The translations under genes and the position numbers were made by a program. From contig NZ_FOAP01000008.1 of NCBI RefSeq assembly GCF_900109545.1, positions 186,001 through 250,000 of the forward strand: a stretch of 64,000 bases of DNA, in the 5' to 3' direction. Positions 7,948-40,990 of this stretch are shown one piece after another; positions within the stretch are counted from its first letter, which is position 1, and each line of letters begins with the position of its first letter. This stretch comes from Stigmatella aurantiaca. GTDB lineage: Bacteria > Myxococcota > Myxococcia > Myxococcales > Myxococcaceae. The notes below the pieces were generated by a model. It saw only the letters and a list, made by a program, of their open reading frames with translations. It made no database searches and was not told where the DNA came from.

Positions 7948-8847
7948 TCACGGCCCCCGGGGCGCCGCCCCCGTGTGTGCCAGGAGGGCCTGGGCCAGGG
8001 GCTCGAAGAAGGCGGGGTTGAGGGCATGCCCCATCCCGTCGATGACGAGCCGCTTCCCCGCCGGGGCTGCCCGGGCCGCGGCCTCGGCGTGCGCGGGCAC
8101 GAAGATCGGATCCTCCGAGCCTTGGATGAACAGGCACGGGGCCGTGACGTGCCGCAGCGCTTCCAGTTGGTTCTTGTCCGGGATGCGCTCACAGGCACGC
8201 CGGTGGTGGTCTCCGGCGAGGGCGTCATCCCCCCGCGCCTCCGCGAGCCGCTGGAGGCCGCGCCAGTACTCCGCGTCGAACGGCGCCCGGCTCCCATTGG
8301 CGAGCCGCCAGCTCTCCACTGCTAGCTCCAGCGGCGACAGCCCCGGGGGGATTTTCGAGAGCGCTTCGAGCCAGTCCTGCCGGGGCGGTGGGAGCCCGGA
8401 TATGGGCGCCTCGCTCCCCATGAAGGTGTGGAGCAGCGTGGCGTAGTCCGGCGTGGACATCATGCTGGTCAGTGAAGCGACGGTCCCGGGGTGCCGGGTG
8501 GCCAGCCGCAGCGCCAGAAAGCCGCCCATGGAGAGGCCCACCCAGTGCACCTTGCCGAGGCCCAGGTGGGCCCGCAGCCCCAGCACGTCCCGCTCGAGGT
8601 CATCCAGGCTGTAGGGCGTCTGGTCGAAGCTGGCGATATGGGACGAGCGTCCCGTGTCGCGGTAGTCGAAGCGGATGACGCGGCGGCCTCCGCGGACGAG
8701 CAACTCCAGCCAGGGCTCCGGCCAGAACGAGGCACCGCAGCCATTGCCCATCAGCAACAGGAGGGGAGGGGCGTCGGGCGAGCCTCTGTCGTCGTACCAG
8801 AGGTCTGTGTCACCGATGCGAAGGAGCTGGCCGGAGGGGGCGTTCAT
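7948..8847 (-). CDS. alpha/beta hydrolase
   Basis: The 299-residue protein has the alpha/beta-hydrolase fold order: oxyanion strand LLLLMGNGCGASFW, nucleophile elbow GLSMGG with Ser106, a cap region of about 100 residues, the acid in QGSEDPIF, and the general base in DGMGHALN. This arrangement suits a cytoplasmic esterase or peroxidase-like hydrolase. The substrate cannot be deduced. The start overlaps the stop of the upstream EEP-family gene by four bases, and the two-component kinase follows 12 bases downstream, so four minus-strand genes from 10151 to 6119 may form one transcript. Confidence 0.9.
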   Translation of the reverse strand: MNAPSGQLLRIGDTDLWYDDRGSPDAPPLLLLMGNGCGASFWPEPWLELLVRGGRRVIRFDYRDTGRSSHIASFDQTPYSLDDLERDVLGLRAHLGLGKVHWVGLSMGGFLALRLATRHPGTVASLTSMMSTPDYATLLHTFMGSEAPISGLPPPRQDWLEALSKIPPGLSPLELAVESWRLANGSRAPFDAEYWRGLQRLAEARGDDALAGDHHRRACERIPDKNQLEALRHVTAPCLFIQGSEDPIFVPAHAEAAARAAPAGKRLVIDGMGHALNPAFFEPLAQALLAHTGAAPRGP

Positions 8848-10151
8848 GGGGAGGAGGCGGGCTTGAAGCGGACGTCGACCCAGTAGTTGGCATCTTTATA
8901 GGAACTGGACGGGAAGCCACCGCTCGACGTGTAGAGGAAGACGCCGTTGCCCCCCACGCTGGCGCTGCCGGGCGCCGTGAGGTTGCCGCTGACCACCGCG
9001 TTCGTCAGTCCCGAGACGTCCCGGGCGAACTGCCCGTTCGAGGTGAAGTACGAGACCACGTAGATGGTTCCCGCGGTGACGGGGATGGGCGTGGGGAGCG
9101 GCGCCTCCTGCCAGCCCGGGATGCGCCCATCCTTCACCGGAACCTGGGCCAGGAGCGTGCCCGTGTTGCTCCACAGGTGGGCGACATAGCCATTGGCATT
9201 GCCCGTGCCCCGGTAGAACCGGAGGGCCTCGATGGTGCCACTGGCGTTGCTGCGGAACCGGACGCCCACTTCCACGGCGCGTGTGTCGTCGCCCTGGACG
9301 GCGGTGCCCGGGACGCGGTCTCCAAAGAGGGTCTGGCTCCACGGCAGGATGACGGTGGCGGTGACCGGACGGTGATCAGATTGGGAAGAGGCGTTCACCA
9401 CGCCGGCGGTCAGCGGGGAGGTCCACGCGGAGCCGAGCAGGACATAGTCGATGCGCTTGGTGGGGAAGCTGGCCGGAATGGTGTAGCCGCTGCCCGAGCC
9501 GCCGCGCGCCCAGGCGTCGGTGAACTGCTGGAGCAGGCTTGTGATGCTGGACTCGGAGGGACTGGCGTTGAGGTCTCCGCCGAGCAACGCCCAGGGCTTC
9601 CCAGCGAGGGCGGCCTTGATGTCCTCGGCCTGCTGGACGCGCTCCGGGGCGCCGGTGGTGCCGAAGTGGGTGACGGCCACGGGGATGAGGCGGGAGGGCT
9701 CCAGCTCCACCTCGAAGAGGGCGAGGACCCGCTGCTCGGCGGCGGAGCGCAGCGGAACGCGCTGGGCGGAGCGGATGGGGTAGCGCGACAGGAGCGCCAG
9801 TCCGTACTGGCCCGAGTCGTAATTGGTCAGTGAGGGAATGAAGGCATAGAACATGCCCGTGAGCTGACCCAGCCGGGCCGCCTGATCCACCTTGTTGGAC
9901 CGCACGGTGAGGACATCCACCTCCTGGAGCGCCACCAGGTCGGGCGCCTGCGCTTTGATGACGTTCGCGACGGTCTCCAGGCTGCTGAGCTCCCCGTGCT
10001 TGATGTTGTAGGTCATGAACCGCAGGCCCCCTCCGGGGGTGAGGGCCTGCGGCTGCTCACCCACTTGAGGATCCGGCTCGGTGGCTTCGGGCGGTGCACA
10101 GTGGGTGAGGGTGGTCATGAGGGTAAGCAGGAGCAGGGGACGGAGGGACAT
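8844..10151 (-). CDS. secreted endonuclease/exonuclease/phosphatase-family protein with C-terminal DUF4082-like domain
   Basis: The protein has 435 residues. The N-terminus MSLRPLLLLTLMTTLTHC is a lipoprotein signal with Cys18. Residues about 42-270 form an EEP fold: FMTYNIKHGE, the metal-binding Glu in LVALQEVD, catalytic GGDLNASPSE, IDYVLLG and the terminal SDHRPVTA. After it, about residues 275-432 resemble DUF4082, a beta-sandwich found attached to secreted proteins (FYRGTGNANGYVAHLW, ASVGGNGVFLY). The enzyme could be a nuclease, sphingomyelinase or phosphatase; the motif set does not decide. It is expected on the cell surface, possibly attacking prey DNA or lipids, which is inference. 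It is divergent from the Cys-rich lipoprotein gene with 62 bases between starts. Confidence 0.88.
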   Translation of the reverse strand: MSLRPLLLLTLMTTLTHCAPPEATEPDPQVGEQPQALTPGGGLRFMTYNIKHGELSSLETVANVIKAQAPDLVALQEVDVLTVRSNKVDQAARLGQLTGMFYAFIPSLTNYDSGQYGLALLSRYPIRSAQRVPLRSAAEQRVLALFEVELEPSRLIPVAVTHFGTTGAPERVQQAEDIKAALAGKPWALLGGDLNASPSESSITSLLQQFTDAWARGGSGSGYTIPASFPTKRIDYVLLGSAWTSPLTAGVVNASSQSDHRPVTATVILPWSQTLFGDRVPGTAVQGDDTRAVEVGVRFRSNASGTIEALRFYRGTGNANGYVAHLWSNTGTLLAQVPVKDGRIPGWQEAPLPTPIPVTAGTIYVVSYFTSNGQFARDVSGLTNAVVSGNLTAPGSASVGGNGVFLYTSSGGFPSSSYKDANYWVDVRFKPASSP

Positions 10152-10213
10152 GGCGGGGAACTCCGGGAGGCAACAATAGGCCGGGTGGGGGCGAGGTGGG
10201 TTAGACTGTGCTC

Positions 10214-12412
10214 ATGTATCGAGCCTGTGTGTTGGGGCTGTTTCTGAGTCTCGTGGCGTGCAAGGAGAAGGCTCCCGGGGAAGGGGCCATCCGGGTCTCC
10301 GTGAAGTACGGAACTTACGTGCCCGCCTGCCTCCGTGTCTCCGCCCGGGATGCGCAGGGCCATGAGGCCAGGACGGACATCCCCCGGGAGAAGTTCCAGA
10401 ACCCGGAGGCCCGGGAGGTCCGCGTCGCGGTGTTCCGCAAGCCGGAGTGGGACCGGGAGCTGTCGCTGGAGGTGTCCTCGTACCGGGCCGCCTCGGGGCA
10501 GGAGTGCGCGGGAGACCTCGTGGAGAAGCGCACCTCGGCGGCCCCCATTCCGGTACCGAGGGGAGAGTTCGCCATCTTCGATGCCGTGCTCGAAGCGCAG
10601 GACCAGGATGGTGACTCCTTCATCGCGTTGCCGGGGCTGGCCCAGGCGGATTGTGATGATGTGCGCAAGGATGTGTACCCGGGCGCTCCCGAGCAGTGCA
10701 GCGTCAACGTGGACTTCGACTGTGACGGCCTCAAAGGCTGTCAGGACGCGAAGTGCGTGGACAAGGCGTGTGACGATGGCAACGCCTGCACGACGGGAGA
10801 CCAGTGCAACGGCGCGCTCTGCCAGGGACAGGCGGTGCAATGCCAGAAGCCCACCGGCGTCTGTTTCACGGGCGCGGTGTGCAACCCCACCACGGGACAG
10901 TGCGACAACGTCCTGGCCCCCCCGGAGACGGTCTGTAATGACCAAGACCCCTGCACCGTGAATGACACCTGCGGGCCGCAAGGCCAGTGCTCGGGCCAGA
11001 GCAAGTCCTGCAACGCGCCGCCGACGGCGTGCTTCGAAGCCTCGGGGACGTGCGACGCCGTCAGCGGCGAGTGCCGGTATCCCTCCAAGCCCGCCGCCAC
11101 GGAATGCAGTGATGAAGACGCCTGTACGGTGAACGACCAGTGCAATGGCAACGGCATGTGCGGCGGACTGGCGACGCCCTGCCAGCCCTCCAGCACTTGC
11201 TTCCGAATCACCAGCGGTTGTGTGGCGCTCGGCAATTGCACCGAGGCCGTGGATCCGGCCAAGGTGAATACGGCCTGTCAGAAGGGCAATGGGCAGAGCG
11301 GCGTGTGCCGCGTCTCTGACGGAGCGTGCAGCTCCTTCCCCTACGTTCCGAGCAATTTTGATCCGGACACGATTCCTGACGCCAATATCGGCACTCTGAC
11401 GACTTCCGGTGCCGTCACCTTCGATTCAACGCCAGGCGCCATGAATCCCTGGGAGCCGCCTGGCCGCGTGACAGCCTCTCCCCCCATCACTGTCATTGCT
11501 CAGGCCAACGGTGCTCCGGATGCAGTGGTGCTCGCGGTGCGAAGCGTGAACTTGGGCGGAGACCTGAAACTCGTGGGGACGCGCCCCGTCATCCTGGCGG
11601 TGTACGGAGACGCCACGCTGAATCACCACATCCTGGCGAACAGTGTGTTGGGAGCATCCTCGGGCCCAGGCAGCAATCAGGCTTGTGGTGCCCGGCAAGG
11701 CGTGGATGGGACGTTGTCGGGGGAGGGAGGTGGGGGCGGTGGAGGGGGTGGCGCAACTGCGGGGGCTTCCGGCGGAAAGGGGTATTCCAGTGGGGCCACC
11801 GGGGGGGGCGCCGGAAGTCAGAGTCCCAGCGTCCGTGTTCCCCTTGTTGGCGGGTGCCCCGGCGGAAAAGGTGGCGGCACGGGAGGCCTTGGGGGGACAG
11901 GAGGCGGAGCGATTCAGATCTCTGTCTCAGGCACCCTCACGGTGGGGAAGAAGGTTACCGCCAGCGGCGGGGCGGGGGTTGGCGGGAATGCCAGCACCAG
12001 TGCCGCAGGAGGCGGCGGTGGAGGGGGGAGCGGCGGCCAGGTCACTTTGGAGGCCTTACGGCTGGTCCTCTCAAACTCAGCCCAACTGACCGCCAACGGC
12101 GGCGGTGGGGGCGAAGGGGGCGGCACATATCAAGGCGGTAAAGACGGTGATGATGGCTATACGTCCTCAGGCGATCCAGCCATGGGGGGACAAGGAAAAG
12201 CCTTGTTGGGGGGAAATGGCGGTACAGGAGGAGCGAGCGCAGGTCCGCTCCCCGTGGAAGGTTCCGTCGGAACCAATGATGCCATTGGTGGGGGGGGGGG
12301 GGGGGGGGGGGGCGGCGCGGTAGGATTCATCCACCTGAGGGCCGTGCGGCCCTGCGAAATCCACACCTCCAGCGTCCGCAGCCCCGAGCCTGTCCTGCAG
12401 TGCCCTCTGTAG
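10214..12412 (+). CDS. mosaic lipoprotein: MopE-like metal motif, Cys-rich repeats, Gly-rich tail
   Basis: The protein has 732 residues from ATG 10214 (a GTG at 10208 adds two residues). The signal peptide ends at LSLVAC. An Asp/Cys motif of the MopE type follows, with DQDGDSF, ADCDD, YPGAPEQC and DFDCDG. At least three Cys-rich units then follow the pattern CxDxDxCTxxDxC, for example CNDQDPCTVNDTC and CSDEDACTVNDQC. A beta-rich middle leads into a long Gly-rich region (about residues 500-700). A run of 23 G bases (12290-12312) encodes part of that region; loss of one G would bring a TAG at 12321-12323 into frame, and gain of one would extend the tail past 12412. It is a surface or secreted protein of unknown partner and is convergent with the transglutaminase gene. 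Confidence 0.82.
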   Translation: MYRACVLGLFLSLVACKEKAPGEGAIRVSVKYGTYVPACLRVSARDAQGHEARTDIPREKFQNPEAREVRVAVFRKPEWDRELSLEVSSYRAASGQECAGDLVEKRTSAAPIPVPRGEFAIFDAVLEAQDQDGDSFIALPGLAQADCDDVRKDVYPGAPEQCSVNVDFDCDGLKGCQDAKCVDKACDDGNACTTGDQCNGALCQGQAVQCQKPTGVCFTGAVCNPTTGQCDNVLAPPETVCNDQDPCTVNDTCGPQGQCSGQSKSCNAPPTACFEASGTCDAVSGECRYPSKPAATECSDEDACTVNDQCNGNGMCGGLATPCQPSSTCFRITSGCVALGNCTEAVDPAKVNTACQKGNGQSGVCRVSDGACSSFPYVPSNFDPDTIPDANIGTLTTSGAVTFDSTPGAMNPWEPPGRVTASPPITVIAQANGAPDAVVLAVRSVNLGGDLKLVGTRPVILAVYGDATLNHHILANSVLGASSGPGSNQACGARQGVDGTLSGEGGGGGGGGGATAGASGGKGYSSGATGGGAGSQSPSVRVPLVGGCPGGKGGGTGGLGGTGGGAIQISVSGTLTVGKKVTASGGAGVGGNASTSAAGGGGGGGSGGQVTLEALRLVLSNSAQLTANGGGGGEGGGTYQGGKDGDDGYTSSGDPAMGGQGKALLGGNGGTGGASAGPLPVEGSVGTNDAIGGGGGGGGGGAVGFIHLRAVRPCEIHTSSVRSPEPVLQCPL
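12290..12312. repeat. homopolymeric run of 23 G within a coding region
   Basis: A single G at 12290 is followed by 22 more, read in frame as Gly codons. Such tracts slip during replication. The published length could also be an assembly or sequencing error, since polymerase and base callers slip here too. The reading frame is intact at the length given. Confidence 0.9.
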
Positions 12413-12421
12413 TCCGGAGGG

Positions 12422-13942
12422 CTACGGCTTCACGGGGGTGGAAGGCTTGTCCTTCACTTCCATCACCTTGAGCTGGCCGATGAGCGGCGTGATCTCCGCG
12501 TTGCCCTCGCGGCCCACGCCGAAGTGCGTCGCGTCCGCCACGGGCTGGTTGAACGTCGGGTCCATCTGCGTCCACTCGCCCACGTAGGCTTCGATCCACT
12601 CATGCCAGTAGAACGCGGGCACCCCGTCCTCGTTCACCATGTAGACCACCCCATCCACCCGCCGCGCCGGAATCCCCGCCGCGCGCAGCAGCGCCACCGC
12701 CAGGAGCGAGTGCTCCGTGCAGTCGCCCTTTTTCTGCCGCAGCACGTCCGTGGCCCGGTCCGCGCTCACCCCGTAGTCCTTCGCCAGGTTCGTGGCCACC
12801 CAGGTGACGATCTTCTTCGACGCCGCGTACGCGTCCTTCTCCGTGCCCACCAGCGTCTTGGCCAGCTTGCGGATCTCTGCGTTGTCGCTCTCGACGATGA
12901 TGGTGGCCTTGAGGTTCTCGCCCCCGTCGGGGTCCGCCACCGGCAGCGGCTTGAGGTTCGCGGGCTTCGGGAAGTCCGACAGCAGCGTCACCTCCACGCG
13001 CCCCTCCGGCAGCTTCACGTACTTCTGCCGGTAGCTGTCCTGCTGGAACTTCTCCGGCAGCCCCGTCATCACCAGCACCGCCCGGCCCGGCACCGCCCGC
13101 GCCTCGACGGGCAGCTTCTTGGGCAGCACGATGCGCGTGAGCCCGAACACCTCCACCACGTCCAGCCGCTTGGCCACCGCCTCGGTCTCGGCCCGCGCCT
13201 TCATCGTCTGGCCGAAGTCCACCTCCACCATCTCCCCGTCCTCGGTGAAGTAGGCCGTCACCGGCACCTTCTCCTTCTCGGAGATGGTCTGCGCCCGGCT
13301 CAGCCGCACCTTCACCCCGCGAACCATCCGCTCCTCGGCGGGCTCCGTCGTGGTGGTGACCTTGTAGCCTTGGAGGTCCGTCCCATCCGTGACGATGCCC
13401 TCCACCGCCGCCTTGCGGAAGATGGCCACGCGCGCCTGGTCCGCGTCCTCGGTCTTCTCGGCGCTGGCCGCCACCGTCAGCACCTCGTCGGGCTGGCCGG
13501 GCCGCTTGCGCACCACCTTCATGCCGCCCGGCGTGTTGGTGGCTTCCAGCCGCTGCGTGCCGCCATCCCCGCGCTGGTCCACCACGAACGAGAGCATCCG
13601 TCCCCCGGGCTTCGCCTCGTACACGCGCTCCTCGCGGTGCACGCGCTCGGAGAGCTTCGTGCCCACGGTGGCCTTGAAGACCAGCTCGGAGACGGCCCGC
13701 ACCTGGTCCTTGCGCCCGGGCACCAGCGCCACGTCCGTGAAGAAGTACCCGACCTTCTTGTCCATCAGGTACAGCCCCAGCCACTCGCCCCCCTTGGGGC
13801 GGGGCACCTGGAGCACATCCGAGACGGTTTGAGGGGCCGCCGCGCGGGAGGCGGAAGCGGGTGCCTGGGCCAGCACCGGGGCCGCGCTCAGCAGCGCGGC
13901 GGTGAGCAGCCAGAGGGCGTGGGAACGGGAGCGGGTCATCAC
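12422..13942 (-). CDS. secreted transglutaminase-like (transglutaminase-core) protein
   Basis: The protein has 506 residues with a signal peptide (HALWLLTAALLSAAPVLA). The first 330 residues are beta-rich and resemble the N-terminal part of secreted transglutaminase-core proteins. The catalytic domain lies near the C-terminus: Cys in KKGDCTEHSLL, His in YWHEWIEAYV and Asp in QMDPTFNQ form the Cys-His-Asp triad. This fold can act as protease, peptidoglycan hydrolase or cross-linking enzyme, and the substrate is not evident. Codon choice is typical of the region. It is convergent with the Gly-rich lipoprotein, only nine bases from its stop, and lies 37 bases downstream of the GNAT gene on the same strand. 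Confidence 0.88.
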   Translation of the reverse strand: MMTRSRSHALWLLTAALLSAAPVLAQAPASASRAAAPQTVSDVLQVPRPKGGEWLGLYLMDKKVGYFFTDVALVPGRKDQVRAVSELVFKATVGTKLSERVHREERVYEAKPGGRMLSFVVDQRGDGGTQRLEATNTPGGMKVVRKRPGQPDEVLTVAASAEKTEDADQARVAIFRKAAVEGIVTDGTDLQGYKVTTTTEPAEERMVRGVKVRLSRAQTISEKEKVPVTAYFTEDGEMVEVDFGQTMKARAETEAVAKRLDVVEVFGLTRIVLPKKLPVEARAVPGRAVLVMTGLPEKFQQDSYRQKYVKLPEGRVEVTLLSDFPKPANLKPLPVADPDGGENLKATIIVESDNAEIRKLAKTLVGTEKDAYAASKKIVTWVATNLAKDYGVSADRATDVLRQKKGDCTEHSLLAVALLRAAGIPARRVDGVVYMVNEDGVPAFYWHEWIEAYVGEWTQMDPTFNQPVADATHFGVGREGNAEITPLIGQLKVMEVKDKPSTPVKP

Positions 13943-40186: not shown

Positions 40187-40327
40187 GGCTCCCCCCCGTT
40201 CTACCCCCGCCCTGGCGGAGGCCGCTACCCTTGACGCAGTGCGAGCCGTCGGTTACGCGCTCGCCCGCCCGGTCCCCGGGCTGAACGGTTCTGCCTGCAC
40301 CCGCAGGCCCCTTTGGGAGAGCACGAG

Positions 40328-40990
40328 ATGAAGTTCTTCATCGATACGGCGGATGTCAGCGAGATTCGCAAGGCGTACGACATGGGGTGCGTGGACGGGG
40401 TGACGACGAACCCGTCGCTCCTGGCCAAGGTGGGCCGTGGGCTGGAGGAGACCATCCGGGAGATCTGCTCCATCGTGGATGGCCCCATCAGCGCCGAGTG
40501 CGTGTCGCTGGAGGCGCCCGAGCTCATCAAGGAGGGGCGCACGCTGGCGAAGATTCACGACAACGTCGTGGTGAAGATTCCGATGGGCACCGAGGGGATG
40601 AAGGCCGTCAAGGCGCTCACCGCCGAGGGCATCCGGACCAACGTGACGCTCGTCTTCTCCGCCAACCAGGCGCTGCTGTGCGCCAAGGCGGGCGCCACCT
40701 ATGTCTCCCCGTTCGTGGGGCGCCTGGATGACATCTCCGAGGACGGCATGGAGCTCATCTCCAACGTCATCGAGATCTACCGCAACTACGACTTCACCAC
40801 GCAGGTGCTGGTGGCCAGCGTGCGCCACCCGGTGCACGTGCTCCAGGCGGCGCGCCTGGGCGCGGATGTGGCCACGCTGCCCTTCAGCGTCATCAACCAG
40901 CTGGCGCAGCACCCGCTCACCGACGCCGGCATCAAGAAGTTCCTGGCGGACTGGGAGAAGGTGCCCAAGAAGGCGCCCTCCGCCCCGTAG
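40328..40990 (+). CDS. fsa: fructose-6-phosphate aldolase / transaldolase (small type)
   Basis: The 220-residue protein from ATG 40328 ([14 protein letters not shown]) fits the small decameric transaldolase group. The Schiff-base Lys83 is in [25 protein letters not shown] is the phosphate-binding strand; [11 protein letters not shown] and LVASVRHP are later conserved strands. It moves dihydroxyacetone units between sugar phosphates or cleaves fructose 6-phosphate; sequence alone cannot separate these. It is followed by a strong terminator that it shares with the convergent lipoprotein gene. Confidence 0.93.

Follow-up and report, generated by a model that had tools for sequence, protein, structure and literature searches.

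Lipoprotein gene and flanking genes

The window, by which we mean the whole stretch of 64,000 nucleotides analyzed here, contains a predicted lipoprotein gene with an uninterrupted run of 23 G near its 3' end. The features of this locus are collected in Table 1. The lipobox, LVAC at residues 15-18, was judged by eye, and its Cys follows a short hydrophobic signal. The match to Pfam PF11617 (MopE) reaches 23.8 bits, below the curated cut-off of 27. The Gly-rich domain was modelled with AlphaFold from a three-row alignment; the low-confidence model (mean pLDDT 46.8, pTM 0.53) places short strands after some of the Gly runs. Both flanking genes are carried on the opposite strand, which makes the lipoprotein gene a single-gene unit. 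Since no downstream gene follows it in the same direction, a frameshift late in the gene would not be polar.

The mature lipoprotein is predicted to start Cys-Lys and to have Gly at position +7; the aligned relatives carry Arg at +2. For M. xanthus, PMC3222651 gives Lys at +2 in 8 of 12 inner-membrane lipoproteins and Ala at +7 in 7 of 10 matrix lipoproteins. A surface location, which the first-pass annotation of this DNA had assumed, is doubtful for the window's protein, which with Lys at +2 and Gly at +7 shows no clear surface signal.

Table 1. Features of the lipoprotein locus (positions in the window)
Feature	Position	Strand	Basis
Divergent gene, endonuclease/exonuclease/phosphatase family with DUF4082	8844..10151	-	92.6% identical to G003 copy
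Lipoprotein gene, 734 aa	10208..12412	+	Signal peptide, lipobox LVAC (Cys18), MopE-like motif, Cys-rich middle, Gly-rich C-terminal domain
Signal peptide and lipobox to Cys18; +2 is Lys	10208..10261	+	Translation; A17 and C18 invariant in 8 aligned sequences
Gly-rich repeat region, about residues 507-703	11726..12316	+	Alignment, translation; low-confidence AlphaFold model
Ten Gly codons enclosing the tract	12287..12316	+	Mixed codons for 7-10 Gly in each of 9 related copies
Homopolymer of 23 G	12290..12312	+	Window sequence and genome-wide run search
Conserved C-terminal tail, 31 residues, with Cys716 and Cys732	12317..12409	+	Invariant columns in 8 sequences
TAG that would stop translation if the tract lost one G (or gained two)	12321..12323	+	Reading frames
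Convergent transglutaminase-like gene	12422..13942	-	97.6% identical to G003 copy

Sequence and rarity of the poly-G tract

The tract is preceded by T and followed by C. Its first nucleotide is a first codon position of the ORF, so the tract lies in frame; it occupies nucleotides 2083-2105 of 2205, 94% along the gene. The codons read GGT, seven GGG, GGC, GGC and then GCG, giving ten Gly (residues 694-703) and an Ala, with the 23 G encoding the seven GGG and the first two bases of one GGC. The length, position, frame, Gly-rich setting and lipoprotein context described in the first-pass annotation are all borne out by the sequence.

The next longest G run in the window is 8. A search of the whole genome (9,365,767 bases) found two runs of at least 14 G or C, this one of 23 G and another of 17 G. 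G runs of at least 9 number 64 on either strand, and the lengths read for 30 of them are 9 (21 runs), 10 (six runs), and 12, 13 and 23 (one run each). With an extension ratio of about 0.28 per base, taken from the window's own G runs, these 64 lead to an expectation of 0.11 runs of at least 14 and about 1e-6 runs of at least 23, compared with the two of at least 14 observed. The length of the 23-G tract is thus far above what composition would give by chance, and slippage or error must be involved; a homopolymer longer than chance is also one mark of a contingency locus. The three other runs of at least 4 Gly within the gene, which serve as an internal control, are in mixed codons. GGG makes up 31 of the 128 Gly codons of the gene outside the tract and 28% of the Gly codons in 39 window ORFs picked by codon-position GC. 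A tandem repeat of a longer unit at the tract was considered and rejected, as no array was found at score 50.

Across the family, 32 of 96 genomes contain some run of at least 14 G, several of these runs lying at contig ends of fragmented assemblies. The frequency is 1 of 27 and 1 of 16 genomes in the two best-sampled genera and 4 of 7 in the window's genus. The earlier remark that such a tract is rare in myxobacteria therefore holds in part, better for the best-sampled genera than for the window's own genus, whereas its judgment that the length is unusual agrees with the count of two such runs in 9.37 Mb where about 0.1 would be expected. Tract contexts were read at 22 loci, namely L011, 15 of the 30 loci listed as L045-L074, and 6 of 20 further loci; the other 14 of those 20, mostly contig ends of fragmented genomes, lie outside this reading, and no count given here draws on an order-wide list of such runs.

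Consequences of a change in tract length

The reading frames predict three outcomes of slippage. With 22 G (or 25), three more residues (AAR) would be added before the TAG listed in Table 1; the product is 704 aa with 22 G. With 24 G (or 21), translation would continue into an unrelated tail with a stop ending at 12471, overlapping the 3' end of the convergent gene; the product is 754 aa with 24 G. With 20 or 26 G, one glycine would be lost or gained and nothing else would change. Both one-base shifts had been proposed in the earlier annotation, to the TAG on loss of a G and past the normal stop into the convergent gene on gain of one, and the frames confirm them. By reading frames, then, a change in tract length would alter the product, as at a contingency locus. 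The tract lies late in the ORF, however, and not in a promoter or early in the coding region. This is too late for on/off switching, which leaves the C-terminal subtype as the only kind of contingency locus that it could be. The tail that would be affected is conserved; its residues invariant in 8 sequences after the A-V-G of the run include C716, I718, S725, P726, C732 and P733.

The glycine run in related genomes

We compared the gene with six other genomes of the genus, which we take to be Hyalangium. Copies are present in five of the six, with several copies each in G004 and G006, those of G006 lying side by side; the remaining genome, G005, has a weak N-terminal match only. Nine related copies from the five genomes reach the Gly run, and all nine keep it in frame as 7 to 10 Gly in mixed codons with a longest G run of 2 to 5. 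It precedes a conserved V-G or M-G and a strand-like stretch. A pure G-tract was not found at the same place in any of the nine (none has more than 5 G in a row), and of the 35 matches to the gene family that were listed for the genus, none has an internal stop or lies in another frame. Conservation of the Gly run argues that it probably has a structural role in the lipoprotein. The relatives' copies in the alignment, seven of the nine, are just 47-68% identical, too far apart to date the tract.

Divergence of the lipoprotein gene

The lipoprotein is only 62.3% identical to its copy in G003, taken as the closest genome, compared with the much higher identities of the two flanking proteins (Table 1). 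At the DNA level, identity to G003 is 91-99% outside the gene and mostly 48-85% inside it where the sequences align. The drop is abrupt at either end of the gene, and G003 also lacks some 300 bases here. Of 46 window ORFs chosen by a codon-position rule, all but one have a counterpart in the corresponding 80-kb stretch of G003, and among these 45 the lipoprotein ranks lowest in similarity, its best piece standing at 59% compared with 74% for the next ORF. At 40313-40990 of the window, a 226-aa ORF is without a match in that stretch of G003, where about 700 bases of DNA are missing. Copies from four genomes are 62-68% identical pairwise, whatever the kinship.

Silent sites have diverged as well. 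Fourfold silent differences from G003 are 0.55 in the lipoprotein gene (0.41 without Gly), as against 0.06 and 0.14 in its neighbors. Fast protein evolution alone is insufficient to explain such silent divergence, and positive selection as its only source was rejected on this ground; exchange of old alleles would fit. From this pattern of divergence in four genomes, alleles have probably been exchanged at the lipoprotein gene, which makes it a candidate for variable recognition in myxobacteria. TraA and SitA, polymorphic recognition or toxin proteins of myxobacteria (PMC6372800, PMC5562445), are likewise envelope proteins described as having alleles that differ far more than the genome. The likeness is one of allele divergence; no immunity partner was seen for the window's lipoprotein.

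Other in-frame tracts in lipoprotein-type genes

The second long tract of the genome, of 17 G (L011 1501-1517; G000:C14:110888-110904), belongs to a different lipoprotein, one with a weak, below-cut-off match to DPBB_1, and lies in the Gly linker immediately behind its lipobox. The same site is in mixed codons in G001, G002 and G003; it reads GGC/GGG/GGC in G003, whose protein is 95% identical, and is a long GGC array in G002. The Gly run at the 17-G site is also longer than that of the nearest relative. The contrast between the 17-G tract and these mixed codons, together with the GGC array of G002, suggests that Gly runs in genes of this type lengthen through slippage in steps of one or three bases.

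In G007 a run of 20 G (L045 1502-1521) directly follows a lipobox-like Cys (LSGC) and lies in frame in an open frame of 598 codons. A slip in this tract would cut the protein right behind the signal peptide. The 23-G, 17-G and 20-G tracts all keep the frame open, a small sample of three for which the chance expectation is 1 in 27.

Origin of the poly-G tract

We favor, with moderate confidence, the explanation that the 23-G tract is a homopolymer that grew by slippage within an older structural Gly run, and that its mutability is a by-product and not an evolved switch. The ancestral state would have been a structural run of 7 to 10 Gly in mixed codons. The contrast with the relatives suggests that replication slippage in this lineage lengthened the run and homogenized its codons to pure G. 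Selection on the protein would keep the frame, and for this reason the observed tract length would leave the conserved tail in frame. Changes of three G would add or remove one glycine, and shifts of 1 or 2 G would cut the last 31 residues or swap them for an unrelated tail of about 50 residues; rare C-terminal variants would thus arise as a by-product of the mutable tract. The evidence for growth by slippage is the mixed-codon Gly run in nine of nine related copies, the same contrast at the 17-G tract, and the conserved tail. Mismatch repair looks present in the genome, with three MutS-type matches, so a repair defect is neither needed nor shown. The tract may be unstable, judging from sequence and from one genome per species. 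If it is real and mutable, structural Gly runs in GC-rich bacteria can turn into unstable poly-G tracts, and such conversion, if true, would give contingency loci a simple way to arise.

A sequencing or assembly artefact, in which mixed Gly codons were misread as pure G or the assembler collapsed a tract of very different length, appears unlikely. The assembly is a draft of 61 contigs, and the doubt raised in the first-pass annotation on this point was apt. According to PMC9187656, Illumina reads that cross a G-tract can finish in spurious poly-G, and tract lengths in databases can err. A published Hyalangium genome is described as an Illumina/SPAdes assembly (PMC10959286) and another has SPAdes-style contig names, so the window's assembly may be of the same kind. 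A misread that preserves the frame would also account for the in-frame state of both tracts of the genome. GGC arrays of at least 5, however, are about as frequent here (44 overlapping matches, one array of ten) as in the relatives (45, 55, 45, 64, 57 and 38), and on this ground a general misreading of GGC as GGG in the assembly was rejected. The tract lies inside a contig of 375 kb with homologous in-frame sequence on both sides, and misreading alone would not yield the longer Gly run found at the 17-G site. Single- or few-contig assemblies of the family contain runs of 30-45 G or C, among them runs of 41 G in G008 and G009 and of 33 and 30 in G040, where the chromosome is one large contig; long tracts therefore do exist in these bacteria. 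A crude artefact is thus made less likely, and the exact count is unproven. We conclude that the tract is probably real and that its length may be off by one or a few bases.

That the tract is a C-terminal contingency locus, in which slippage would switch between the two-Cys tail, a truncated form and a foreign tail of 50 residues and in which this variability is selected, we regard as improbable. The tract is far longer than chance, the three frames give products of similar length (704, 734 and 754 aa), and the gene is hyper-divergent, a trait that recognition loci can show. A precedent is described in H. canadensis, where eight genes carry poly-G of at least 10 near the 3' end with ranges of length in the reads (PMC2823697). 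The contingency locus proposed in the first-pass annotation is nevertheless not supported: the tract is absent from all nine related copies, the 35 matches listed include neither an internal stop nor a copy in another frame, and no polar effect is expected. The C-terminal tail is strongly conserved, two such tracts in a whole genome do not make up a set of switches, and the Lys at +2 leaves the surface location doubtful. A fuller version, in which the lipoprotein is an allele-exchanging recognition or adhesion protein whose tail is switched by the 23-G tract on top of allelic diversity, would amount to C-terminal phase variation in a myxobacterium; we give it little credence. Least probable of all would be arrival of a tract without any role by recent allele exchange from a lineage that already carried it. 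The sharp fall of DNA identity at both ends of the gene and the excess of fourfold silent differences over the neighbors would agree with such an origin, but no tract-bearing donor was found in the genus among the nine related copies. Exchange is also compatible with the slippage explanation and does not exclude it.

Comparison with known systems

The tract shares with the 3'-end poly-G tracts of Helicobacter canadensis a position late in the ORF, frame-specific short tails and unaffected initiation (PMC2823697). The H. canadensis tracts are of at least 10 G (10-14 in the rows that we consulted) and vary in reads, whereas the tract described here has 23 G in one draft genome and is not conserved. 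The Campylobacter phasome likewise consists of coding-strand poly-G tracts inside ORFs, but these are given as typically 9-10 G, rarely 13-15, in many genes per genome (PMC6321876), in contrast to tracts of 23 and 17 G, two in 9.4 Mb, both in Gly runs. The G-tract switch of the Bifidobacterium breve pilus also lies in an envelope-protein gene, and its length in databases is similarly uncertain. That tract connects the signal-coding and anchor-coding parts of the gene and recurs in related species (PMC9187656); here the last 31 residues alone are affected. Gly is the commonest residue in myxobacterial low-complexity regions, and GGC the usual bacterial codon (PMC6821194), in contrast to the pure GGG of this one run. 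Our literature searches on phase variation in myxobacteria or Myxococcus turned up no homopolymer switch.

C-tracts upstream of another lipoprotein family

Intergenic C-tracts were observed in two other genera at loci L158-L163, with 41, 41, 14, 33, 30 and 45 C (genomes G008, G009, G012, G040 twice, and G041). They lie directly 3' of a palindromic box, CTGAAC-4-GTACAG (CTGCAC in G041), and the site also occurs at the start of contig G038:C40. The box was compared by eye with the published standard LexA site of M. xanthus, CTRHAMRYBYGTTCAGS, and rejected as such a site because it misfits at inner positions. A sigma-70 scan found nothing. In the one copy scanned, a terminator-like hairpin follows the C-tract.

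In four of the six loci the C-tract is followed by two small genes, the first of which encodes a lipoprotein (CGHARP...); the lipoprotein seems frame-broken in L160 and seems to be missing in L161. A Pfam search with this lipoprotein gave no match. Its family (query L159:3398-3886(-)) is found in 44 of the 96 family genomes, with up to 24 matches per genome, several of them with internal stops. Many runs of at least 14 G are found where contigs of fragmented assemblies end (G005, G038, G043, G044, G051, G080-G086 and others), and G011:C163 ends 63 bases beyond the start of the C-tract lipoprotein gene that it carries, short of the position of the relatives' tract. Homopolymer tracts of this kind seem to be places where assemblies break or contain errors.

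The C-tract looks like a leader or promoter homopolymer, and it appears to be a better candidate for phase variation than the 23-G tract of the window. C-tract leaders offer a directly testable candidate switch in this group.
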